Shown here one piece after another: positions 51,611 through 64,000 of a stretch of DNA of 64,000 nucleotides. Below the pieces are notes generated by a model. It was not told the DNA's origin, searched no databases, and worked only from the letters and a program-made list of their open reading frames with translations. The position numbers and the translations under genes are program-made. Position 1 is the stretch's first letter. Every line of letters starts with the position of its first letter. Source of the DNA: Hyalangium gracile (GTDB lineage: Bacteria > Myxococcota > Myxococcia > Myxococcales > Myxococcaceae); contig NZ_JAHXBG010000013.1 in NCBI RefSeq assembly GCF_020103725.1, positions 124,001-188,000 on the forward strand. Direction: 5' to 3'.

Positions 51611-51685
51611 GCGGGAATAGCTCAGCGGTAGAGCATCGCCTTGCCAAGGCGAGGGTCGAGGGTTCAAATCCCTTTTCCCGCTCCA
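51611..51685 (+). tRNA. tRNA-Gly (GCC anticodon)
   Basis: 75 nt including encoded CCA. Acceptor stem GCGGGAA pairs perfectly with TTCCCGC (51675-51681), discriminator T, then CCA. D-arm has AGCTCAGCGGTAGAGC, anticodon loop TTGCCAA (51641-51647) gives anticodon GCC, and the T-loop is GGTTCAAATCC. Every canonical position is intact, so this is a functional glycine tRNA reading GGC and GGT. Confidence 0.97.
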
Positions 51686-53161: not shown

Positions 53162-53527
53162 CTATCGGAGGAGGGCGCCAGCCATGCCGGTGAGTGCCTG
53201 GAGCTGGGTCTCGTCCATCCGGAGCACGAGCGTGAGCAGGCGGCGCAAGCCGGGCGGGGACTCCTCCTGCTTGCCGCGAGAGGAGCTGGTGGGCTCGTCG
53301 GCGGCGCCTGTGCCTGTCAGCCCCAGCAGCGCGTCCGCAGAGATGTGGAGCACCGTGCAGAGTCGGCGCAGAGTCGGGACACTGGGCATCACCTTCCCGC
53401 GCTCCATGCGGCTGTAGACCATGGAGGTGATCTCCACGAGAGAGGCCACCTCCGCCTGGGTCAGTCCCGCGCGTTGCCGAGCCTCACGGGCCGCCTCGCC
53501 GATCTTCCTCGCTAGCTCTTCATTCAT
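53162..53527 (-). CDS. XRE-family transcriptional regulator
   Basis: 121 aa. HTH_3 domain at about 8-65: IGEAAREARQRAGLTQAEVA, LVEITSMVYSRMERGKVMPS, VPTLRRLCTVLHISADALLG. The C-terminal ~50 residues are polar with one helical segment (LRRLLTLVLRMDETQLQALT). Faces the repeat protein gene convergently across 12 bp. A perfect 12-bp palindrome sits 20 bases upstream of its start, so it probably autoregulates. Confidence 0.88.
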   Translation of the reverse strand: MNEELARKIGEAAREARQRAGLTQAEVASLVEITSMVYSRMERGKVMPSVPTLRRLCTVLHISADALLGLTGTGAADEPTSSSRGKQEESPPGLRRLLTLVLRMDETQLQALTGMAGALLR

Positions 53528-53547
53528 AGGTGAAGGGGAGAATACCT

Positions 53548-53559
53548 GATAGGCCTATC
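53548..53559. promoter_or_regulatory. Palindromic operator candidate
   Basis: GATAGGCCTATC is a perfect 12-base palindrome 20 bases upstream of the XRE regulator start. The octamer ATACCTGA overlapping it (53542-53549) recurs at 53653-53660 beside a second palindrome GGTATACC (53650-53657). The 53528-53822 gap otherwise holds no gene. Confidence 0.45.
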
Positions 53560-53822
53560 TCCCGGCTTGCCCGATCTGGGGGACAAACCCTCATCCGTGG
53601 GCCAGGTCAGGAGCGCCTCCAGGCTGTGCTGCTTGTGCGGAGCTACCTTGGTATACCTGACACGGGTAGGGTAGAAGTAGCGGCGATGGGGCTACACTCC
53701 GAGCCAGGAGCAGGGTGTGCCCAGGTCGGGTTGCGGCGCCAGCTCGGGGAGGTTGAACGCATGGGCGAGGGAGCTGCCCCGACACGGATGCGCCCGGATG
53801 GCCTGACCCTCGGAGCGGGGGC

Positions 53823-54370
53823 ATGACGACGCCTGCGCCCTTGGAGATCCCTCCTGGAACGGATGTCCGCGGCTTCCTGATCGAGGGGAAGCTGGGAGCC
53901 GGCGGCTTCGGCACGGTGTACCGAGCTTGTCGGGGCGGGCAGCTGTACGCGCTCAAGTTCATCCACCGGAAGGCTGCAGGGGGCTGGGGCGAAGCGCGAG
54001 GTGGACATCCTCATGCGGCTGGCCCATCCGAACGTGGTCGGCTTCGAGGGGTGTGGCTTCTGGCCGGATGACACGCGCGAGTACCTCGTGGTCATCATGG
54101 TCTACGTGGAGGGGCGGCGGCTGGACGTGTGGGCCCAGGAGGAGAACCCGGATGCCCGTGCGGTGGCCCGGAAGGTTCTCATCGCGGGGAAGGCCCTCGA
54201 GGCAATCCACCGGGAGCACGTGGTTCACCGGGACTTGAAGGAGGCGAACATCATCGTTCGCTCCGCGGATGGCGAGCCGGTCGTCGTGGACTTCGGAGTG
54301 GCGGGCGGCCCGAATACGCCGAGGGTGACGCGCGGTGTGCTCCCGCCCTGCACGCTGGAGTACCATAGGA
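53823..54370 (+). pseudogene. Frameshifted and truncated serine/threonine kinase
   Basis: Translation begins in one frame with the P-loop (FLIEGKLGAGGFGTVYRACR, YALKFIHRKA), then homology jumps to the next frame near 53980-54000, within the G-run before 'GCGAAGCGC', and continues REVDILMRLAHPNVVGFEG, AIHREHVVHRDLKEANIIVR, VVVDFGVAGGP, TRGVLPPCTLEYHR. One extra base in the G-run explains the shift. Kinase homology stops at about 54365, before the APE-helix region, and the remaining C lobe is absent; the opposite strand there is cysC. A sequencing error could explain the frameshift but not the truncation. Confidence 0.75.
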
Positions 54371-54398
54371 TCCCAGGTGGAGACTTCGACTCTGTGAC

Positions 54399-55034
54399 TC
54401 AATGTTCGCGTCGAGTCCGTGCGATGAGCCCCCAGGCGCGCAGGGTCTCCAGGATGCGCTCGCGCCCTGCCTCCACCGTCTCCTCATCCGTACGCACGAT
54501 GACTTCGGGGGACTCGGGTGGCTCGTAAGGGTCCGAGATGCCGGTGAAGTGCGGGAGCTCTCCGGCCAGGGCCTTCTTGTAGAGCCCCTTCACGTCGCGG
54601 CGGATGAGGGCCTCCAGGCTCGCCCATGCGTACACCTCCACGAACGGGATGCCGGTCCCGGTGGAGAGCTGACGCATTTCATCGCGCGAGTCCCGGTACG
54701 GCGAGATGGCCGCGACGATCACCGCCACGCGGTGCCGTGCCAGCAGCCGCGCCACGTAGCCGATGCGCCGCACGTTCTCCACGCGGTCCTCTCGCGAGAA
54801 GCCGAGCCCGCGCGACAGGTGCTTGCGCACCTCATCCCCGTCGAGGATCTCCACCGGCAGGAGCGGCTCCAGGTGCTCCCGGACGGCGCGCGACAGCGTG
54901 CTCTTGCCCGCGCCGGACATGCCGGTCAGCCAGAGGATGAAGCCCGTCCGGCGCTCGGCCCCATCGCTCGTGCCGGCTTCCGCGTCTCCTGCATCCTGGC
55001 CCGCGGGGCTGGTAGGGGATGGCTGCTTGCTCAC
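54399..55034 (-). CDS. cysC: Adenylylsulfate kinase
   Basis: 211 aa from GTG 55034. P-loop FILWLTGMSGAGKSTLSRAV, then VEILDGDEVRKHLSRGLGFS, REDRVENVRRIGYVARLLAR, VAAISPYRDSRDEMR, FVEVYAWASLEALIRRDVKG, YKKALAGELPHFTGISDPYE. It phosphorylates APS to PAPS, the sulfuryl donor. An N-terminal ~30-residue polar tail is extra. It lies 151 bp downstream of the isonitrile genes on the same strand; I treat it as the cluster border because the sulfation logic is not needed for isonitriles, but co-transcription cannot be excluded. Confidence 0.9.
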   Translation of the reverse strand: MSKQPSPTSPAGQDAGDAEAGTSDGAERRTGFILWLTGMSGAGKSTLSRAVREHLEPLLPVEILDGDEVRKHLSRGLGFSREDRVENVRRIGYVARLLARHRVAVIVAAISPYRDSRDEMRQLSTGTGIPFVEVYAWASLEALIRRDVKGLYKKALAGELPHFTGISDPYEPPESPEVIVRTDEETVEAGRERILETLRAWGLIARTRREH

Positions 55035-55185
55035 GAGACCTTCGCTCCGCCTTCGATGAGGCACGGTAGCACGGGTACTCCGGGAAGGCCCGCGGCTTGC
55101 CGAGCGGGCCTTCCGTGTTGGCCTCGCAACCACTGCGCGATCCATCCATCCATCCAGCCGCGCGGTCCAGGCGACTACCCGCCAC

Positions 55186-56019
55186 TCAGAGGATGTGGAT
55201 CCGCTGGAGGTGGCGGGGTGAGTCCGCCTGGAACGCGTTGCGCCCATGCAGCTGGGCGTGGTTGTCCGCCAGCAGCATGTCGCCGTCGCGCCAGGCGTGG
55301 ACGTAGCAGGCCCGCGGGTCATACAGCGCCTGGCGCAGCTCCTGGAGGAAGCCCTCGCGCCGCTCGGCCGGGATGCCGGCGATCTCGATGAAGAGCGGGT
55401 TGAGCTTCACGCTCTCGTCATTCAGCTCCTCGGCGAACCGCAGGGTGGTGGCTCCGGTATCCGGGTGCCGCGAGACCAGCGGCACCGTCACCTGCCCGCC
55501 GTAGTGCGCCACCTTCTCCGTGGTGTAGGTGATGACGACCTTGCTCCACTCCTCGCGCTGCGCGGCGGTGGCCCGCCGCCAGACGGTCGGGGTGTGGCTG
55601 AAGATCGTCTCGCCACCCGCGCCGGGCCGGGGGGCCTTGCGGCACTGGAAGAACTGGAAGCGCGGCACCACCCGGGCGAAGGCGCCATCCCAGTGCAGAG
55701 GGACGTTGCCTGGCGTGAACAGGTAGTTCCGCGGCCGCTCGTGGATGACGAGCTCCAATACCTCACCGAAGTCCCAGGTGAGCAGCTCGCCCCAGGTGCG
55801 GGCGTACCCGACCATCTCCTCCTTGGGGAGCGCCGAGAAGCCGCGCAGGATGACGACGCCGTGCTTCTGGGTCCACTGGCGCAGCAGGGACGCCGGCAGT
55901 TCGCGCAGGTCCGCCCCCGTGCCATTGGCCTCCACGAGGAGCCCGAAGGGTTGGACGGGTTGGCTCGACAGCTCGATGGCGGCCTCGCGCGGGACGATGG
56001 TTTCCGTGCTGATCATCAT
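55186..56019 (-). CDS. pvcB: Fe(II)/2-oxoglutarate dioxygenase, PvcB/isonitrile-associated
   Basis: 277 aa; ATG 56019 forms an ATGA overlap with the isonitrile synthase stop. TauD/TfdA fold: GVVILRGFSALPKEEMVGYA, iron ligands H109 and D111 in PLHWDGAFARVVPRFQFFQC, distal His258 in DNHAQLHGRNAF, and the C-terminal Arg (RHLQRIHI) for 2-oxoglutarate. In PvcB/IsnB/AmbI3 pathways this enzyme oxidatively decarboxylates the isonitrile amino acid to a vinyl isonitrile. Tight coupling to the synthase gene supports that role here. Tyr versus Trp specificity cannot be read by eye. Confidence 0.88.
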   Translation of the reverse strand: MMISTETIVPREAAIELSSQPVQPFGLLVEANGTGADLRELPASLLRQWTQKHGVVILRGFSALPKEEMVGYARTWGELLTWDFGEVLELVIHERPRNYLFTPGNVPLHWDGAFARVVPRFQFFQCRKAPRPGAGGETIFSHTPTVWRRATAAQREEWSKVVITYTTEKVAHYGGQVTVPLVSRHPDTGATTLRFAEELNDESVKLNPLFIEIAGIPAERREGFLQELRQALYDPRACYVHAWRDGDMLLADNHAQLHGRNAFQADSPRHLQRIHIL

Positions 56020-56993
56020 GACGCCAGCTCCTGGATGAAGGTGGGGGCCACGAAGTGGCTGGGGCGCTGCTTGCGCATGACGAGCGACGCGTTCATGCGC
56101 TCGGCTTCCTGCCGCTTGACGAGCATCAGGCCCTTGCCGGTATCCACCACCACCCCGTGCCAGGGCGTGAGCCAGTTGTCCTTCGTTCCCACCATGTGGA
56201 TGCCAATCTTCGAGGAGTGCAGCGGCTGCGGGTGGATGGAGAGCCGGAGCGCGCTGGGGAACTGCTCGCCGACCAGGCTGCTCCACGCGTTGCTGCGCTG
56301 GATGGTCTTGTAGGCGAGCTCCTTCGACGCCTCGCGGAGCTTGTTCCGGCTCTCGTCCGGCCGCAGCACGACCTGATCCTCGAACATGAAGCGGTGGATG
56401 CCGTTGAAGAGGTTCTGCGTGGCCGGCTCGTTCTGGACACGCCAGCGCAGCTCCTCGAGCGGGGTGGAATAGCGCTCGGTCAGCTGCCGGCGCATCTCGT
56501 CAAATGCGATGTCTCCGAAGAGATCCTCCAGCGCGAAGAAGTGGATCGCGCTGCCGCCGATCTCCTCCAGCATCCGGATCAGCTCGTGCTTGTAGCGGGT
56601 GACGTCCGCGTCTCGCACGCCCACGATGTCGCTGAAGACGCGCCCGTCCGAGCAGATGGTGAGGCGCGCCCCTGGCGCATAGATGTGGCCGATGTGCTCG
56701 CAGAGCGACTGGAGGAAGTCCAGCGCCACCCGCTCCGCCATGTCCGGCAGGGGCCCGAGCACCTTGCGGAGGTTGGGAGACTTCGCCGGGAAGGCGGGGA
56801 GGACGAAGTGGATCGGCTCTCCGCGCGCCACGACGTTCTTCACCTGCTCGAGGTGAGGCGCGAAGCACTGCTCGCACGGGGTTCGTGCGCATGCCTCGCC
56901 ATGGCCGGAGCTGATGCGCCGGAACTGGAAGAGCAGACCGAGGATCTGCCTGGAGATGGTGGACACGTCGCTCGTCTGGATCTCTGAGTACAT
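56016..56993 (-). CDS. pvcA: Isonitrile (isocyanide) synthase, PvcA/IsnA/DIT1 family
   Basis: 325 aa (P. aeruginosa PvcA is of similar length). ATG 56993 is preferred because GCGGAGGT lies seven bases upstream; a GTG at 57038 lacks any such site. Family motifs: ACARTPCEQC (35-43), HFVLPAFPAKSPNLRKVLGP (66-74 core), PDMAERVALDFLQ, YAPGARLTICSDGRVFSDIV (115-120 core), RLSIHPQP and DNWLTPWHGVVVD. The enzyme converts the alpha-amino group of Tyr or Trp, with ribulose 5-phosphate as carbon source, to an isonitrile. Overlaps pvcB. The leader can fold over its ribosome binding site (57001-57025). Confidence 0.9.
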   Translation of the reverse strand: MYSEIQTSDVSTISRQILGLLFQFRRISSGHGEACARTPCEQCFAPHLEQVKNVVARGEPIHFVLPAFPAKSPNLRKVLGPLPDMAERVALDFLQSLCEHIGHIYAPGARLTICSDGRVFSDIVGVRDADVTRYKHELIRMLEEIGGSAIHFFALEDLFGDIAFDEMRRQLTERYSTPLEELRWRVQNEPATQNLFNGIHRFMFEDQVVLRPDESRNKLREASKELAYKTIQRSNAWSSLVGEQFPSALRLSIHPQPLHSSKIGIHMVGTKDNWLTPWHGVVVDTGKGLMLVKRQEAERMNASLVMRKQRPSHFVAPTFIQELAS

Positions 56994-57000
56994 GGGGAAG

Positions 57001-57025
57001 ACCTCCGCGGTGGCTTTGCGGAGGT
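57001..57025 (-). promoter_or_regulatory. Leader hairpin that buries the pvcA ribosome binding site
   Basis: On the pvcA mRNA, ACCTCCGC (57025-57018) is perfectly complementary to GCGGAGGT (57008-57001), separated by nine bases. The second arm is the Shine-Dalgarno sequence, seven bases before ATG. An 8-bp GC-rich stem would block initiation until opened. ACCTCC also equals the 16S anti-SD sequence. The 56994-57254 gap shows no obvious sigma70 promoter. Confidence 0.55.
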
Positions 57026-57254
57026 GGATGGCCCTCACGTGGGTTGTGAGAATCCGGATCGCCGAGGGGCATCCGTCGGCTGGGACCCAGGCGGCCTTCC
57101 GTCAGCTCTCTCCACGGCAGGCATGCGTCACATCCAGCCCGAGCGGACTCCAGTCCTGCTGAGCGAGCCGACGGGGAATGGCGCCAGAGGGGGGACGTAC
57201 CGTGCTCCCACGCTCCATTCCTTCCCAGCCCCCGGCCGCCAGAGGGAGCACAAC

Positions 57255-58673
57255 ATGAGCAGCACTCGAACCGGAAAGCAGGCCATGGGCCGAGCCGTGG
57301 TCATTGGCGGCAGCATCGCAGGCCTGCTGAGCGCCAGGGTCCTCTCGGACTCTTTCGAGGAGGTGGTCCTCCTGGAGCGGGATCCTCCTCCTCTGGGGCC
57401 CGAGCCTCGCAAGGGCGCTCCGCAGGGGCGCCATGTCCACGCCATCCTCCAGACGGGACTGCAGGTGATGGCGGGGTTCTTCCCCGGTCTCATCCAGCAG
57501 GTGCAGCGCGAGGGCGGCATGATCGCCGACACCAGCCGTGACGTGGCCTGGTTCCACTTCGGCTCCTGGAAGCCGCGCTACCAGAGCCGGGTGGAGGGCG
57601 TCATGAGCACCCGCCCCTTCATGGAGTGGCTCATCTACCGGCGCGTCGCCGCGCTGCCGAACGTCAAGCTGCGGCACGGCTGCTCCGTGGACGGGCTCAT
57701 CGAAGATGCCGATCGGACGGGCATCCAGGGCGTCCGGGTGAAGGGCCCCGAGGGAGAGGAGACGCTCCAGGCCTCGCTGGTCGTGGACGCGAGCGGCCGT
57801 GGAACCCGGGCGCCGCGGTGGCTGGAGGAGCTCGGCTATGGCAGGCCGGAGCAGGAGGAGGTCAGCATCAACCTGGCCTACACGAGCCGGTTCTATGAGC
57901 GCCCGCCGGACTTCAAGGAGGACTGGCGGTACGTGCTGCTGTTCGCCCGGCCTCCAGAGTCCTGGCGCTCGGGCATGATGTGCGACGTCGAGGACGGGCG
58001 GTGGCAGGTCAGCCTCAACGGCTACTTCGGTGACCACCCGCCCACCGATGACGAGGGGTTCCTGGAGTACGCGCGCACGCTGCCCACCCGGACCATCTAC
58101 GACGCCATCAAGAACGCCCGGCCGCTGACGCCGCCCATCGTGCACAAGTACCCCGCGAGCCGGTGGACCCACTATGAGCGGCTGCCACGGCTCCCGGAGG
58201 GCTTCATCGTCCTCGGCGATGCGGCCTGCTCCTTCAATCCCATCTACGCCCAGGGGATGACGGTCAGCGCCCTGGGCGCGCGGCTGCTCGCGCAGTGCCT
58301 CGCCGAGCAGGCTCGCTCCTCACCGGGACAGCTGCGAGGGCTGTCGACCCGCTTCCAGCGACGCCTGTGCAAGGTCATCTCCACGCCCTGGCGGATGTCC
58401 ACCTTCACGGACCTGCGCTACCCGCAGACCCAGGGGCGGCGTCCCTTCGGGCTGAGGCTGGTGCAGTGGAGCATGGTCACGCTCATCGACATGGCCTCCT
58501 GGAACGTGCGGCTCTGCCACCAGCTCTTCCTGGTCGTGCACATGCAGGCCAAGGGGAAGACGCTCATGAATCCGGGCATCCTCTTCCCGTTCCTCGCCTA
58601 TGCGCTGAAGAGCCTGTTCGTGGGGCTGCCGCGGAGGGCCAACGTGAGCCCCCTGCCGCCCGCCCGGCTCTGA
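57255..58673 (+). CDS. FAD-dependent monooxygenase (epoxidase/hydroxylase-like)
   Basis: 472 aa from ATG 57255 (GAGGGAG upstream), divergent from pvcA. Rossmann FAD motif AVVIGGSIAGLLSARVLSDS, then LLERDPPPLGPEPRKGAPQG, the middle motif LVVDASGRGTRAP, and the flavin-monooxygenase DG motif FIVLGDAACSFNPIYAQGMT. C-terminal helices (LFLVVHMQAKGK, FLAYALKSLFVGLP) could touch the membrane. Family members hydroxylate or epoxidise; in meroterpenoid pathways such enzymes often epoxidise the terpene to start cyclisation. Its role here is inferred from neighbours. An 11-bp hairpin follows its stop. Confidence 0.85.
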   Translation: MSSTRTGKQAMGRAVVIGGSIAGLLSARVLSDSFEEVVLLERDPPPLGPEPRKGAPQGRHVHAILQTGLQVMAGFFPGLIQQVQREGGMIADTSRDVAWFHFGSWKPRYQSRVEGVMSTRPFMEWLIYRRVAALPNVKLRHGCSVDGLIEDADRTGIQGVRVKGPEGEETLQASLVVDASGRGTRAPRWLEELGYGRPEQEEVSINLAYTSRFYERPPDFKEDWRYVLLFARPPESWRSGMMCDVEDGRWQVSLNGYFGDHPPTDDEGFLEYARTLPTRTIYDAIKNARPLTPPIVHKYPASRWTHYERLPRLPEGFIVLGDAACSFNPIYAQGMTVSALGARLLAQCLAEQARSSPGQLRGLSTRFQRRLCKVISTPWRMSTFTDLRYPQTQGRRPFGLRLVQWSMVTLIDMASWNVRLCHQLFLVVHMQAKGKTLMNPGILFPFLAYALKSLFVGLPRRANVSPLPPARL

Positions 58674-58680
58674 GGGCTGA

Positions 58681-58715
58681 AAGAAAAAGCCCCAGGGCGG
58701 GGAGCCCTGGGGCTT
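58681..58715 (-). terminator. Intrinsic terminator of the prenyltransferase gene
   Basis: Perfect 11-bp arms AAGCCCCAGGG (58687-58697) and CCCTGGGGCTT (58705-58715); on the minus strand the stem is followed by TTTTTCTT. It serves the minus-strand prenyltransferase; the FAD monooxygenase on the other strand may use the stem too but without a T-run. Confidence 0.8.
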
Positions 58716-58719
58716 GGGT

Positions 58720-59691
58720 TCACACGGCCTGCTTCAGCCGTGGGAGCACGATGGAGCGCGTCTTGTCCCGATCGATGTCGACCTGCATCTTGACGCGCAG
58801 GAAGTAGCTGACGTCCCGCGCGTAGCCCCGCTCCAGCTTGACGTACGCCCGATTCGGAGAGAACGCCCAGGCGAGGATGTACTGCGGGTTGGCGTTCAGC
58901 GTGGGCGCGTGGTGCAGCACCTCGAGCCGGCGGCCCAGGGCGGGTAGGTGGATCTCCGGGTTCGGCGCGTCGTAGGGAATCTCGGGCGCGTAGGTGCACC
59001 ACCGGAGCGGCTTGTCCTGCTGCCACGAGAACGTGAGCGCGACGCACCCATAGTTGGCCTGCGTCGCGAGGATGTCGTAGCAGACCTCCGACGAGGGCGT
59101 CACCGAGCCCATGGCATGGGCGAACGACTGGAGCCACTGCTCCGTCCGCAGCTCCATGTCCCAGCCGAAGTACACGTTCGTGGTGTGGTGCTGGAAGTCC
59201 GAGGAGACGAAGTACGTGGTGTCGAGCCCGAAGTGCCGCAGCAGCCCCTGCGCGTTCCGCACGCTGTCAGGCAGGGACGGCACCCGCTGGCAGAGGCGCT
59301 CGATGGGCGTGCAGCCGGTGAAGGACCAGGCCTTGGCCATCCCGAAGCCGGCGTCGAAGTCGAGCCCGGCGCTGAAGCTCCCCGGGCAGGTGTCCAGGAT
59401 CTGGCTCTGCAGGGTGAGCAGCTGAGGATGCTCGGGTCCCACTAGTCCGGCCTCCCGCGCCACGGCCGTGCGGTTGATCGGCTCCGAATCGAGGATGCGG
59501 TAGTACAGGCCATCCCCGGGCTTGGTGGTGGCCTTGAACTGGACGGGGCGCTCGTGGAACTCCGTCCTGAACGCCTTCAGCGCTGCTCGGATCGTGTCCT
59601 CCTTGAAGCCCGCTCCGAGGCCTCGGGTGAGCTGGCGCATGTCCGTGATGAACTGCTCTTCTTCAAAGGATTGGGTGTCGATGAGTTCCAT
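58720..59691 (-). CDS. ABBA-type aromatic prenyltransferase (CloQ/NphB/AmbP1-like)
   Basis: 323 aa, the length of CloQ/NphB-type enzymes. I see the family pattern of paired strands rather than Asp-rich motifs: GDGLYYRILDSEPINRTAVA, CPGSFSAGLDFDAGFGMAKA, WSFTGCTPIERLCQRVPSLP, TTYFVSSDFQHHTTNVYFGW, YDILATQANYGCVALTFSW and DVSYFLRVKMQVDIDRDK. No NDxxD/DDxxD motif and no membrane helices, so it is a soluble PT-barrel enzyme. It should attach a C5-C20 prenyl group to an electron-rich aromatic ring. AmbP1 in hapalindole clusters belongs to this superfamily and acts on an indolyl vinyl isonitrile. Separate monocistron divergent from the FAD oxidase. Confidence 0.82.
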   Translation of the reverse strand: MELIDTQSFEEEQFITDMRQLTRGLGAGFKEDTIRAALKAFRTEFHERPVQFKATTKPGDGLYYRILDSEPINRTAVAREAGLVGPEHPQLLTLQSQILDTCPGSFSAGLDFDAGFGMAKAWSFTGCTPIERLCQRVPSLPDSVRNAQGLLRHFGLDTTYFVSSDFQHHTTNVYFGWDMELRTEQWLQSFAHAMGSVTPSSEVCYDILATQANYGCVALTFSWQQDKPLRWCTYAPEIPYDAPNPEIHLPALGRRLEVLHHAPTLNANPQYILAWAFSPNRAYVKLERGYARDVSYFLRVKMQVDIDRDKTRSIVLPRLKQAV

Positions 59692-59901
59692 TCAGCCTGT
59701 CTCCAAGTGACTCGATGTCATGCAGGCAGAGTGGGGCCTGGCGGAAAGTGATGAACGTCTGGCGCCCTCCGGCAGGCTGGCGAGCGAGCACCTGAAGGAC
59801 GACATGCTTCCGGGGGACGCCTTGCCCTCTTCGCGGGTCATCACAACCGCGCGCGGCGCTGTCTGACCTGAGAGTCCAAGCGCTTCGACAGGGGAGTCTT
59901 C

Positions 59902-61290
59902 ATGGAGAGTACGTCTTTGGAGTGGCAGGGCCCGAGCCGCGATCCCGTGCCCGGGTTGGATGGGGTGTTGGTTTCCTCCGAGCCGGAGCTGCGAGGCGCG
60001 GCGGATGACTTCGGGCACGTGGTGAGCCGCCGGCCCTCGGCGGTGCTCCGGCCTGGCTCCGTCGACGACATCGCCCGGACGGTCCAGTTCGCCCGTAGGC
60101 ATGGAGTGAAGATCGGCCCGCGCGGCCGGGCTCACGCCATGTACGGACACGCCCAGGTGCAGGCGGGCATCGTCATCGACATGGGCTCGCTCTCGGAGAT
60201 CCACTCGATGGGGGAGGATCGGGTCGACGTGGACGCCGGCATCTCGTGGAGCGAGCTGGTGGCACGGACCCTCCCTCAGGGCCTGACTCCGCCGATCCTC
60301 ACCGACTACCTGAACCTGTCCGTGGGCGGGACGCTGTCGATGGGCGGGGTGAGCGGCGCGAGCTTCCGGCACGGCGTCCAGGTGGACAACGTGCTGGAGC
60401 TCCATGTCGTCACAGGCGAGGGCCGGCGGGTGACCTGCTCTCCCACGCTCCATCGGGAGCTGTTCGAGGCCACGCTGGCGGGCATGGGGCAGTGCGGCAT
60501 CATCGTCCGCGCCACCTTGCGGTTGCTGCCTGCTCCGACTCACGTCCGCGTCTTCGATCTCGGCTATGCCGATCCGGCCCAGCAGCTCCAGGACGAGCTC
60601 CGGGCGATCGAGGACGGGCGCTTCGACTACGTGGTCGGCTGCATCGTTCCCATGGGAGGACAGTGGATGTACCGGATGCTGGGGATCGCGTACTACACGC
60701 CCCCCGCGCGGCCGGAGGATGCTCGGCTGCTGGAGGGCCTCTCGTACCAGCGGGGCTCGGAGCAGATCATGGACTGCACGTACTTCGAGTTCCTGAACCG
60801 GCTCGTGCCTCCGCTCGCCGAGGTCGAGCGGCTCGGACTGCTCGCCCATCCGCATCCGTGGTGCGATCTGCTGGTGCCGGCTTCGAGGCTCGAGGAGTTC
60901 CTCGGCCAGGTGCTCCAGGAGGTCGCTCACGCGGAGCTGTCTCCCTACTTCCCGATCCTGCTGTATCCGTTCAAGCGGGACCGCCTCACCCGGCCGCTGT
61001 TCCGCGTCCCGGAGGAGGACACCTTCTTCCTGGTCGACATCCTGCGGACCGCGTCTCCGGAGACGGTGGATGCCGCTCGGATGGTTGCCCACAACCGCCA
61101 GCTCTTCGAGCGCAACCGCTCCTGGGGTGGGACGCACTACGCGATCAGCGCCATTCCGCTCTCTCACGAGGACTGGCGCCGTCATTACGGCTCCGTCTGG
61201 GAAGGCTTCGCGGCCGCCAAGCGCCGCTACGATCCGGACAACGTGCTGACGCCTGGCCCCGGCATCTTTGGCCCCGGCGCTCTTCAGTGA
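59902..61290 (+). CDS. Cytokinin-dehydrogenase-like FAD-linked oxidase
   Basis: 462 aa from ATG (GGGGAG upstream). PCMH-type FAD domain with PRGRAHAMYGHAQVQAGIVI, in which His is at the place of the covalent FAD attachment in cytokinin dehydrogenases (GRGHS). Then LSVGGTLSMGGVSGASFRHG, LELHVVTGEGRRVTCSPTLH, GMGQCGIIVRATLRLLPAP, and C-terminal cytokinin-binding-like domain with PYFPILLYPFKRDRLTRPLF and LTPGPGIFGPG. Known CKX enzymes oxidise N6-isopentenyladenine side-chain amines; in a prenylation cluster a related oxidation of a prenylated product is inferred. Divergent from the prenyltransferase gene. Confidence 0.85.
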   Translation: MESTSLEWQGPSRDPVPGLDGVLVSSEPELRGAADDFGHVVSRRPSAVLRPGSVDDIARTVQFARRHGVKIGPRGRAHAMYGHAQVQAGIVIDMGSLSEIHSMGEDRVDVDAGISWSELVARTLPQGLTPPILTDYLNLSVGGTLSMGGVSGASFRHGVQVDNVLELHVVTGEGRRVTCSPTLHRELFEATLAGMGQCGIIVRATLRLLPAPTHVRVFDLGYADPAQQLQDELRAIEDGRFDYVVGCIVPMGGQWMYRMLGIAYYTPPARPEDARLLEGLSYQRGSEQIMDCTYFEFLNRLVPPLAEVERLGLLAHPHPWCDLLVPASRLEEFLGQVLQEVAHAELSPYFPILLYPFKRDRLTRPLFRVPEEDTFFLVDILRTASPETVDAARMVAHNRQLFERNRSWGGTHYAISAIPLSHEDWRRHYGSVWEGFAAAKRRYDPDNVLTPGPGIFGPGALQ

Positions 61291-61300
61291 GCTCCGAGGG

Positions 61301-61333
61301 CCGCCCCCAGCGTTCAGCCTGCGCTGGGGGCGG
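61301..61333. terminator. Hairpin between convergent FAD oxidase and HMG-CoA reductase genes
   Basis: Perfect 12-bp arms CCGCCCCCAGCG (61301-61312) and CGCTGGGGGCGG (61322-61333), nine-base loop, no T-run. Position between convergent stops suggests a bidirectional barrier. Confidence 0.5.
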
Positions 61334-61361
61334 TGCGCGCCCGGGCCAGTTGCTGCTCGGC

Positions 61362-62693
61362 TCAGGCGCTCTGCTTCAGGGAGGAGGACGCAGCCTGCGC
61401 TTCCACCTGTCGCTCCGTCAGGCCGCGGGCATGCAGCGCCATGTGGCCCTTCTGGATGCCCTCGGAGCCCAGGACCCGGAGGGCCGCCAGGTTCTGCGCC
61501 AGTCCCACCGCGGCGAACACCTGCGCCATCTCCCGCACGCTGGTGGCGCGCAGCAGCCTCAGCGCCAGCTTCACTCCCGGGTGCACGTTGACGCGCCCGC
61601 CCACCATTCCCAGCGCCAGCGGCAGCTCGATGCTTCCCACCAGGGAGCCCTCCTGCAGCGCCCAGGTGGACAGCGGCCGGTAGCGCCCATCGCGGCAGGC
61701 AAACGCATGCGCCCCGGCCTCGATGGCCCGCCAGTCCTGCCCGGTGGCGATGGCCACCGGGTCGATGCCATTCATGATGCCCTTGTTGTGTGTGGCGGCG
61801 CGGTAGGGATCGGCCTGGGCGAAGCGGCTGGCCTGGACGATGCCCTCGGCCAGGGCCAGGCCCGGTCGATGGCCATCCGTCAGCAGCTCCACGGGGATCC
61901 GGCAGGAGGCTCGCGCCAGGCGTTGATCCGCCAGGTTGGAGAGGATGCGCAGATACACCTTGCCTCCGGTGAGCCGCTCGATGAGCGGGGCGATCCCCTC
62001 CACCATCGTGTTCGTCAGGTTGGCGCCCATGGCCTCCAGGCAGTCGATGTGGAGGTGGACGATGAGCAGCGGCTCTCCGCTCGGGCCTTCGGGAGCCGGG
62101 AGCACGCGCACCGCCAGATCCCGGGCTCCGCCGCCCCGGCGCACCATGGTGGGATGGAAGCTGTTGGCCAGCGCCAGGAGCTCCTCCCTCGCCGCCAGGA
62201 TGCGGTTCGAGGCCTCGGTGGGATCGCCGTAGTGCGCCACCTGCACCTGGCCGATCATGATGGAGGGGTCGGCTTCGGCCTGGAAGCCGCCAGCCTCTCG
62301 CACGATCTTGGAGGCGAACGAGACGGCCGCGACCACGGACGGCTCCTCCACCGCCATGGGTACCAGGTGGTCGCGCCCGTTGACGGAGAGGTTGAGCCCC
62401 AGCCCCATCGGCAGGGAGAAGACGCCCACCATGTTCTCGATCATCCGGTCCGCCAGCTCCGCCGGGAGCCCGGGGGAGTCCTGGAGCAGCTCGGAGTCCT
62501 CATCGGTGAGCTGGAGCATCCGCTGGAGCTTCTCCAGGCGCTCCCGCCGCGACAGCTTGTGGAAGCCGGCCAGCCGGGACGTCACCGGTACGGGGCACGT
62601 CTCCGGTTCGCCGCTTCGCTGCGAGCCGCGCGGCTCGGGAGCGTCTGGAAGGACTTGTCGAAGGAGGGGAGCTGCATCGCAGTCATGCTTCAT
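61362..62693 (-). CDS. mvaA: Class II hydroxymethylglutaryl-CoA reductase
   Basis: 443 aa; ATG 62693 in an ATGA overlap with the upstream prenyl-synthase-like gene. Motifs: ENMVGVFSLPMGLGLNLSVN, VPMAVEEPSVVAAVSFASKI (catalytic Glu about 116-117), DCLEAMGANLTNTMVEGIAP, AATHNKGIMNGIDPVAIATG (catalytic Lys), QDWRAIEAGAHAF (catalytic Asp) and IQKGHMALHAR (catalytic His417). All four catalytic residues are present. It makes or breaks mevalonate; in this context the biosynthetic direction to feed terpenoid precursors is inferred. The extra ~45 N-terminal residues are polar. Confidence 0.93.
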   Translation of the reverse strand: MKHDCDAAPLLRQVLPDAPEPRGSQRSGEPETCPVPVTSRLAGFHKLSRRERLEKLQRMLQLTDEDSELLQDSPGLPAELADRMIENMVGVFSLPMGLGLNLSVNGRDHLVPMAVEEPSVVAAVSFASKIVREAGGFQAEADPSIMIGQVQVAHYGDPTEASNRILAAREELLALANSFHPTMVRRGGGARDLAVRVLPAPEGPSGEPLLIVHLHIDCLEAMGANLTNTMVEGIAPLIERLTGGKVYLRILSNLADQRLARASCRIPVELLTDGHRPGLALAEGIVQASRFAQADPYRAATHNKGIMNGIDPVAIATGQDWRAIEAGAHAFACRDGRYRPLSTWALQEGSLVGSIELPLALGMVGGRVNVHPGVKLALRLLRATSVREMAQVFAAVGLAQNLAALRVLGSEGIQKGHMALHARGLTERQVEAQAASSSLKQSA

Positions 62694-63631
62694 TGCACTT
62701 GCTCCGGGTGTAGGGGATCCAATGCGTCACGAGCGATCGCGGCCAGGGGGCCGTCTGGTCCCTCGAGTGGCTCGATGGCGGCGATCGCTTCGGCCACCTT
62801 CCGGACCGCGAGGGCTCTCGAGGTCTTCAGACCCAGCACGGAGGCGAAGGTGATACGGCCGGCGACGGTCTCCGTCTCAGCGGTCGCGTCGCTCGCCCTG
62901 GCCCGCAGGTCGTCGCCGATCAGGAAGGCGAGCCCCACGGCGTCTCCGTAGACATCCACGCGCGCCAGGGTGTCCTCGTCCGCTCCCGCGGCGAGCGCTC
63001 CCATGCGGCACGAGGCGCGGATGAAGCCGCCGGTCTTCATCGAGTGCACCTGCAGCAGGTAGGCCAGGCGGGCGTCACGGTCGTTGACGAGGTCGGGCAC
63101 CTGCCTGCTCACCATGCCCATCAGGCCCGTGCCCATGGCCAGCTCCCGGGAGAGCCGGGCGCGCACTGGCTCCGGTCCGCTCGAGAGCAGACGGAAGGCT
63201 TCGAGGATCAGAGCGTCGCCCGCTTGGGTGGCCAGGGTCTCGCCGAAGGCTCTCGAGGAAGAGGGCCGTCCGCGGCTCAGGGCTCTGTCGTCCATGGCCC
63301 GCAGGTCTTCGTGGATCTGCGAGCAGGTCTGGATGAGCTCGAGCGCGCATGCGGCGTCCTCCACCACCCGAGGGGGCACGCGCGCGCCGCTCACGGCCTC
63401 CGCGACAGCCAGGCACAGCACCGCCCGTCTTCGCTCGCTCTCGGCCAGCAGCGAGTAGCGCAACGCCTTCCTGACGAGGAGCGGCGAGCTGGGGGGGAGT
63501 TCGACCAGACGGGCGAGCAGAAGCGCTTCCAGCTGCGCCTTCCGCGACGCCACGTAGGTGTCTGCTTCGAAGGGGGAGGGGACCGCACCCTGTTCCACAT
63601 CCATCGACTCGAGCATCATCATCACCGCCAT
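62690..63631 (-). CDS. Divergent isoprenyl diphosphate synthase homologue with altered catalytic motifs
   Basis: 313 aa from ATG 63631 (several ATGs nearby are possible). Alignment by eye with the intact ispA at 22.7 kb is clear (GDALILEAFRLLSSGPEPVR, KTGGFIRASCRMGALAAG), so the two are paralogues. But the IPP-binding GGKRLRP is replaced by ESERRRA; the first Asp motif DDLPAMD is E108-D109-LRAM-D114 without the following DDDL; GGQVLDI is SRQVPDL; the second motif DDILD is DDLRA; and GKPVGAD is lost. Normal synthase chemistry is doubtful. It may act as a non-catalytic partner subunit or have a new role. Start of the mvaA operon. Confidence 0.82.
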   Translation of the reverse strand: MAVMMMLESMDVEQGAVPSPFEADTYVASRKAQLEALLLARLVELPPSSPLLVRKALRYSLLAESERRRAVLCLAVAEAVSGARVPPRVVEDAACALELIQTCSQIHEDLRAMDDRALSRGRPSSSRAFGETLATQAGDALILEAFRLLSSGPEPVRARLSRELAMGTGLMGMVSRQVPDLVNDRDARLAYLLQVHSMKTGGFIRASCRMGALAAGADEDTLARVDVYGDAVGLAFLIGDDLRARASDATAETETVAGRITFASVLGLKTSRALAVRKVAEAIAAIEPLEGPDGPLAAIARDALDPLHPEQVQ

Positions 63632-63805
63632 CCAGAGGAGTCTTCTTCGATGGAGCAGGCTCCCTGAATGTGTGATGTGCCCCGGCCGGAATCCTCCCGA
63701 GGGGCCACGCTGGCTTTTCAACCCTCAGGCCCTCAGAGTGACGATGGGGGAGCTTGCCCCCGCACGGTCGCCTCGTGGCCGAGCACTCTGCACTGGAGAC
63801 GACGC

Positions 63806-64000
63806 GTGACCCCGGAACAGAACAAGGCACTCGTGGTGAGGCTGTTCGAAGAGCTGCTCAACCAGCGCAATGTCTCTCGGGTCTCCGAGTTCCTGAGCCC
63901 TGGCTTCGAGCGTCATGACATCGGCCAGCTGTTCCCGGATCGCGTCGGGGCCGAGGGCACCAAGGATCATGTCGCGATGCTGCTGGCCGGGATCCCGGAC
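63806..64000 (+). CDS. SnoaL-like protein, 5' part (cut by window end)
   Basis: 65 codons from GTG 63806 to the end of the window, no stop. TPEQNKALVVRLFEELLNQR and FERHDIGQLFPDRVGAEGTK match the start of SnoaL-like/ester-cyclase NTF2-fold proteins ('n..lv.r.feel.n..d...v.e.l.p.f..h'). Members act as polyketide or meroterpenoid cyclases, or as unrelated small enzymes. The 63632-63805 gap separates it divergently from the prenyl-synthase-like gene and shows no clear promoter. Membership in the cluster is inferred from position. Confidence 0.65.
   Translation, partial: MTPEQNKALVVRLFEELLNQRNVSRVSEFLSPGFERHDIGQLFPDRVGAEGTKDHVAMLLAGIPD

Follow-up and report, generated by a model that had tools for sequence, protein, structure and literature searches.

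To our knowledge, prenylated isonitriles of hapalindole-type logic are known from one cyanobacterial group. The hpi, amb and wel clusters of Subsection V cyanobacteria combine a PvcA-type isonitrile synthase, a PvcB-type oxygenase with an Ala-Phe-Ala + Ala188 pocket (AFA/A), an ABBA prenyltransferase and a gene related to prenyl-diphosphate synthases (PPS). According to PMC4236562, these clusters carry two copies of the synthase IsnA, I1 and I2. We analyzed 64,000 nucleotides, hereafter the window, from the myxobacterium Hyalangium gracile (bases 124001–188000 of contig NZ_JAHXBG010000013.1, C13, in an assembly of 11.7 Mb and 81 contigs). The candidate cluster spans window positions 55186–63721 and contains the same four elements; an adjoining SnoaL-like gene extends beyond the window end. 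On balance we favor reading this locus as a small isonitrile-meroterpenoid gene cluster, in which a PvcA–PvcB pair, probably of tryptophan type, would be followed by prenylation by the ABBA enzyme, by epoxidation and by the closure or oxidation of a ring.

The locus differs from the cyanobacterial clusters in having one PvcA, the only one in the whole assembly. Whereas those clusters include tryptophan-biosynthesis and methylerythritol phosphate genes, none is present among the ten proteins scanned here (53162–64000), and an HMG-CoA reductase (HMGR) is found instead; no Stig cyclase was recognized among the scanned cluster proteins, which instead include an epoxidase-type flavoprotein, a cytokinin-dehydrogenase-like (CKX) oxidase and the SnoaL-like protein. 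The paerucumarin (pvc) and rhabduscin-type systems share the PvcA–PvcB pair and supply its solved relatives (3e59, 3eat and 7tcl; we take 7tcl to be PIsnB because of its motif), but they are tyrosine-derived and have the pockets MYL/C (3eat) and MYK/N (7tcl) rather than AFA/A. CloQ acts on 4-hydroxyphenylpyruvate, a tyrosine-derived acid, in the clorobiocin aminocoumarin cluster; it is the closest solved prenyltransferase by sequence and has the same predicted fold, but its cluster presumably lacks isonitrile genes. The flavoprotein has its best solved relatives in the polyether epoxidases LasC/Lsd18 and MonCI, but the neighboring genes read here include no polyketide synthase.

Core biosynthetic genes

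Genes were called from an open reading frame (ORF) listing together with Pfam and NCBIfam scans, which recovered each of the eight genes named in a preliminary description of the window: PvcA, PvcB, the ABBA prenyltransferase, the flavoprotein, CKX, HMGR, PPS and SnoaL. PvcA matches DIT1_PvcA over profile positions 1–272 of 273 (E = 5e-83, 279 bits against a cut-off of 26.4), and the Pseudomonas aeruginosa PvcA structure 3e59 with E = 8.2e-76. PvcB, scanned as 55186–56055, matches TauD (E = 3.2e-40); scanned as 55186–56016, it matches the structures 7tcl (E = 5.5e-61) and PvcB 3eat (E = 3.5e-58). Its iron site (HxD...H) is intact, with HWD and a distal HGR. The two frames had been described as fused by an ATGA overlap. 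The overlap exists, with an ATG on which PvcB can start inside the ..TCATGA end of PvcA, but it couples two separate proteins. The PPS and HMGR genes share an overlap of this kind.

The prenyltransferase matches PTase_Orf2 (PF11468; E = 8.9e-44, 150.5 bits against a cut-off of 22) and, among solved structures, CloQ (E = 6.1e-35), AmbP1 (E = 1.6e-24) and AmbP3 (E = 2e-22). An AlphaFold2 model from a six-row alignment that included cyanobacterial rows (pLDDT 74.2, pTM 0.77) superposes on EpzP, CloQ, AmbP3, AmbP1 and NphB-type chains with tied scores (Z about 26–28, 266–298 residues aligned), which predicts the ABBA fold of CloQ, EpzP, AmbP3 and AmbP1. The protein is 27–30% identical to the enzymes of cyanobacterial hapalindole-type loci and shares positions with these and with CloQ, residues whose roles we assume.

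The sole PvcA (PF05141) and sole ABBA (PF11468) matches of the 11.7-Mb assembly lie 1.7 kb apart. The chance of such proximity is about 1 in 1000 for a 10-kb target in 11.7 Mb, a figure that is arithmetic and not a test. With the three genes together, an AFA/A pocket in PvcB and a predicted fold of the CloQ/AmbP1 type, the earlier comparison with the core logic of hapalindole biosynthesis is upheld.

Substrate of the isonitrile synthase

Met105, Tyr106 and Lys107 of PIsnB sit at the tyrosine ring according to PMC9467999, where Lys or Arg at 107 with Asn or His at 188 characterizes formers of vinyl isonitriles, and Leu107 with Cys188 formers of isocyanoacrylates. The AFA/A signature of the window PvcB is also that of the cyanobacterial PvcA-PvcB-ABBA loci L049–L052. 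The strains of L049 and L050 are listed with wel clusters in PMC4236562, a paper in which WelI1 and WelI3 are reported to have been used to reconstitute the indole vinyl isonitrile. In an alignment of 78 PvcB rows, the window's included, AFA/A occurs in 27, AF[V/I/L/T or gap]/A in 24 and MY[K/R]/N in 22 (one of them, L097, ends before position 188), with five others.

Trees were built from tblastn-matched stretches rather than whole proteins, with 90 rows for PvcA (L031 forms a very long branch and L032 fell below the cut) and 78 for PvcB. The PvcA partners of all 22 MY[K/R]/N rows fall within a single 33-row clade (100/100). A PvcA tree had been proposed for sorting tyrosine from tryptophan types, and it places the window PvcA outside this clade. 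In the PvcB tree the nearest rows by path, after the myxobacterial locus L023, are cyanobacterial. Because the AFA/A pocket is common to L049–L052, two of them from wel strains, and the window PvcA lies outside the MY[K/R]/N clade, its substrate is probably L-tryptophan.

Several observations pull the other way. The window PvcB has Ala at both 107 and 188, on which the K107/N188 rule is silent, and the point mutations at 107 and 188 described in PMC9467999 did not switch the product. AFA/A is backed by one characterized lineage, and many of its 27 rows are without a known substrate, including L029 and L030, which are associated with a UbiA-type prenyltransferase. The PvcB tree demands 10 changes for this signature, and starred branches force at least seven of these. 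According to PMC4236562, the L050 strain possibly has a cluster that does not work. Some of the evidence favors the same chemistry starting from tyrosine, in which a 4-hydroxystyryl isonitrile would be prenylated on its phenol ring by an ABBA enzyme acting like CloQ: CloQ surpasses AmbP1 as a solved match of the prenyltransferase, the only NCBIfam model matched by PvcA is the tyrosine type (at 277.6 bits, far under its 600-bit equivalog cut-off), and the PvcA rows nearest after L023 are not cyanobacterial but actinobacterial, with no known substrate. The shared AFA/A pocket and the position of PvcA outside the MY[K/R]/N clade speak against this route, which we regard as a minority possibility beside tryptophan.

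Distribution and integrity of the cluster

PvcA (PF05141) was found in 10 of 147 genomes of the class, one of which (G057) has a partial match only, and ABBA (PF11468) in 5 of the 147, and in 5 of 195 across the phylum. A wider survey covered the best 80 of 378 PvcA relatives in genome_contigs, several of them on short contigs; at least five also carry an ABBA gene (L049–L052 and L056). In L056 (9290–14201), from Planctomyces MAG-38, a PvcA with a TetR-like N-terminus (TetR_N 23.2 bits against a cut-off of 24), PvcB, an ABBA enzyme 37% identical to that of the window and a P450 follow in a row. ABBA occurs in 2 of 392 Planctomycetota genomes, drawn from a larger group; the second locus (L161) has no PvcA within its short 3.9-kb stretch.

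PvcA–PvcB pairs are also linked to an unrelated prenyltransferase. Among 90 loci (L023–L032 and the same best 80 relatives), 25 have a UbiA-type membrane prenyltransferase with PvcB, fused to it in 20 and encoded as a separate following frame in five (L029, L030, L054, L057, L061, L064–L069, L071–L078, L080, L087, L091, L093, L103 and L115). They span Bacteroidota, Acidobacteriota, Planctomycetota, Myxococcota and a metagenome-assembled genome (MAG) of Actinomycetota. The first UbiA Asp motif, NxxxDxxxD, is present in all 25, and 24 have a TetR-like N-terminal region on PvcA; the 25th PvcA of that kind is the one in L056, with ABBA instead of UbiA. Pfam confirmed UbiA in L029, L030, L061 and L074 and TetR_N in L029 and L030, and the remaining loci were assigned with hidden Markov models built here. 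These pairs resemble the window locus in joining PvcA–PvcB to a prenyltransferase, but theirs is membrane-bound and mostly fused to PvcB, in contrast to the soluble ABBA enzyme. A search of open-access literature (titles and abstract starts) for UbiA with isonitrile found no paper on this pairing.

The assignment of all genes to one cluster has to be set against contrary evidence. Among the 147 class genomes, this one alone has PvcA and ABBA together; the co-occurrence on which the earlier proposal was to be judged is thus absent within the class, and present outside it in L049–L052 and L056. The nearest PvcA–PvcB pair, in L023 (genome G074; 77 and 79% identical, respectively), has within its 20 kb no homologue of the prenyltransferase, flavoprotein, CKX, HMGR, PPS or SnoaL genes at E ≤ 1e-3. 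The families of the flavoprotein and of CKX are widespread in the class, with members in 53 (E ≤ 1e-20) and 45 (E ≤ 1e-30) of the 147 genomes. The cluster genes switch strand, no transporter was recognized among the scanned genes, and the lone regulator-like gene among them encodes a helix-turn-helix protein (53162–53527) that lies beyond an adenylylsulfate (APS) kinase. The lack of such neighbors in L023, the commonness of the two flavin enzymes and the alternating strands would fit a PvcA–PvcB pair that makes a small vinyl isonitrile or isocyanoacrylate by itself, next to a separate terpenoid or tailoring pathway. We consider this unlikely: the only PvcA and the only ABBA gene of the assembly are neighbors, their adjacency with PvcB recurs in cyanobacteria and the Planctomyces MAG, and the 25 UbiA-type loci link the pair to prenyltransferases again.

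The site of the cluster is variable in the genus. Both flanks are present in G082 and G080, and the four 20-kb flank stretches from these genomes contain no match to the window-equivalent 51.75–68.01 kb; variability of the site therefore follows. The flanks lie about 105 and 58 kb apart, respectively, and a clean island insertion was not evident. Recent foreign origin was rejected on composition: the GC content per kb at 55–64 kb (0.65–0.71) is like that at 44–51 kb (0.64–0.74). A tRNA-Gly gene (51611–51685) borders the variable region on its left, and in G080 a second match to the tRNA stretch occurs about 50 kb away.

Candidate tailoring and precursor genes

The flavoprotein matches FAD_binding_3 (25.5 bits against a cut-off of 22), as well as LasC/Lsd18 (E = 9.1e-57) and MonCI (E = 9.5e-54) over about 390 residues. 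It has a 57% identical paralogue in its own genome, and the neighborhoods of five paralogues (L174–L178) gave no hint of a pathway. The CKX-like oxidase matches Cytokin-bind (E = 7.8e-34) and FAD_binding_4, with cytokinin oxidase as its best solved match (E = 4.9e-70); it too has a paralogue in the genome (63% identical). The in-window part of the SnoaL-like protein just exceeds the SnoaL cut-off (28.7 against 28.4 bits, E = 1.3e-06). The best solved match of its frame (L002:9746–10231) is a predicted ester cyclase (E = 3.4e-20), followed by polyketide cyclases. It is possibly a cyclase, and its membership in the cluster is uncertain.

The HMGR (HMG-CoA_red, E = 1.2e-104) is 75% identical over 387 residues to a copy on contig C50. 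It is one of four HMG-CoA reductase matches in the assembly, the others being on C50, on C6 and at the edge of C37, which cuts the last. From their translations, without a family scan, the C50 copy lies in a mevalonate operon and the C6 copy in a carotenoid cluster. The alignment of the HMGR core with 6dio extends to chain residue 389 and takes in GHMALHAR. Past this motif the C50 copy runs for about 50 more residues, whereas the cluster HMGR has 20 unlike residues, and the C-terminal flap sequence is missing. A frameshift hiding the flap was rejected: the other downstream frames lack it, and the best hit of the flap peptide as a query was 57% over 14 residues (E = 0.56), which we attribute to chance.

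The PPS homologue (polyprenyl_synt, E = 6.3e-27) is 52% identical over 289 residues to a homologue at C13:146798. Relative to that protein, GGKRLRP has become ESERRRA, DDLPAMD has become EDLRAMD and DDILD has become DDLRA, with a five-residue gap. PPS is thus without an intact set of GGKRLRP, DDxxxxD and DDxxD motifs, which we take to be those of farnesyl and geranylgeranyl diphosphate synthases, the first for binding isopentenyl diphosphate (IPP). Both proteins look like recruited native paralogues, and judging by sequence their catalysis may be impaired or altered. The preliminary description had included HMGR and a divergent PPS homologue in the gene set. Both are present, the former as a diverged, flapless paralogue and the latter with degenerate motifs. 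Because of these two defects, a dedicated precursor supply by HMGR and PPS, itself a guess, is doubtful. The idea that the two genes serve primary metabolism alone was rejected, since other copies exist, among them the HMGR copies that the translations place in the C50 mevalonate operon and the C6 carotenoid cluster.

A decaying cluster, with intact core genes, broken precursor genes and a product no longer made, is compatible with the other readings of the product and would explain the missing flap, with no trace in another frame, as well as the loop gap of PPS and the changes at its IPP site and two Asp motifs; we judge it improbable, as every cluster frame is open with coding bias, the PvcB iron ligands are intact, the prenyltransferase shares positions with CloQ and the cyanobacterial enzymes (their roles being our assumption), and the genome holds further HMGR and polyprenyl synthase genes. 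Third-position GC in the cluster ORFs is 0.79–0.93, lowest in SnoaL; the PvcB value is from a longer ORF.

Proposed pathway

In the favored scheme, PvcA would use an aromatic amino acid, with L-tryptophan the likeliest, and convert its amino group to an isonitrile, and PvcB would carry out a desaturation, probably with decarboxylation, to give an aryl vinyl isonitrile. The ABBA enzyme would then prenylate the aromatic part. A double bond of the added chain would be epoxidized by the LasC/MonCI-like flavoprotein, and the closure or oxidation of a ring would fall to the SnoaL-like protein, the CKX-like oxidase or both. HMGR and PPS may increase or reroute the supply of precursors. Support for the first two steps comes from enzyme families that include solved structures, and for the third from family and neighborhood. 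The remainder we infer, as we do the amino acid, the decarboxylation, the order of steps, the donor length, the cyclization and the membership of the flavoprotein, CKX, HMGR, PPS and SnoaL.

The product had been envisaged as a prenylated, possibly cyclized aromatic vinyl isonitrile. The prenylation logic is supported; cyclization is conjecture. No hapalindole-type Stig cyclase was recognized, all scanned cluster proteins being assigned otherwise and no dedicated Stig search of the genome having been made. In agreement with the earlier statement, we found no myxobacterial isonitrile in open-access literature (titles and abstract starts).

If the proposed reading is correct, hapalindole-type logic reaches myxobacteria and Planctomycetes, and the locus provides a compact set of genes for new isonitrile terpenoids that are cyclized by a different chemistry. 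The PvcB–UbiA fusions make the link between isonitriles and prenylation testable in many other organisms. More speculatively, isonitrile formation plus prenylation might be a general strategy with several origins and unrelated prenyltransferases, with cyclization here by epoxidation and epoxide opening, through the LasC/MonCI-like and SnoaL-like proteins in place of a Stig cyclase, and with the degenerate PPS tuning the length of the chain that the housekeeping synthase makes. As judged from its genes, the myxobacterial cluster is a promising lead for a new natural product.

Gene inventory and neighboring genes

Table 1. Genes of the candidate cluster in the window
Feature	Position	Strand	Evidence and remarks
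PvcB/IsnB-type Fe(II)/2-oxoglutarate desaturase	55186..56019	-	TauD; HWDGAFA metal and pocket motif, distal HGR
PvcA/IsnA-type isonitrile synthase	56016..57038	-	DIT1_PvcA; GTG start at 57038, ATG near 56993 also possible
Flavin-dependent epoxidase-type monooxygenase	57255..58673	+	FAD_binding_3; LasC/MonCI relatives; ATG at 57255
ABBA-fold aromatic prenyltransferase	58720..59691	-	PTase_Orf2 (PF11468); predicted fold
Cytokinin-dehydrogenase-like (CKX) FAD oxidase, possible tailoring enzyme	59902..61290	+	Cytokin-bind, FAD_binding_4
HMG-CoA reductase paralogue without C-terminal flap sequence	61362..62693	-	HMG-CoA_red
Prenyl-diphosphate-synthase (PPS) homologue, degenerate catalytic motifs	62690..63721	-	polyprenyl_synt; TTG start uncertain
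SnoaL-like (NTF2-fold) protein	63806..64000, on to window-equivalent 64231	+	SnoaL; earlier start at 63668 possible

The APS kinase gene (54399–55076), which shares its strand with PvcB and follows it immediately downstream, may or may not be part of the cluster.

The survey of PvcA neighborhoods revealed other arrangements. Five class genomes (L024–L028) have a different PvcA (38–40% identity) adjoining a P450-like gene, which was checked against Pfam for L025, and their stretches contain no match to PvcB; the arrangement calls to mind the yeast DIT1/DIT2 pair. Tryptophan-halogenase-like flavoproteins occur by PvcA–PvcB pairs in a cyanobacterium (L044:13845–15647, with two genes between) and in an Allokutzneria (L045:11766–13550, directly after the pair).

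To the right of the window, translations were read and two ATP-grasp genes were scanned with Pfam. A graspetide (microviridin-like) gene set lies just beyond the window end (L002:10367–12686). Its precursor contains two cores, TKKYPSDSDE and TMKYPSDSDE, and MvdD-type pre-ATP-grasp domains are present in two further proteins of the set.

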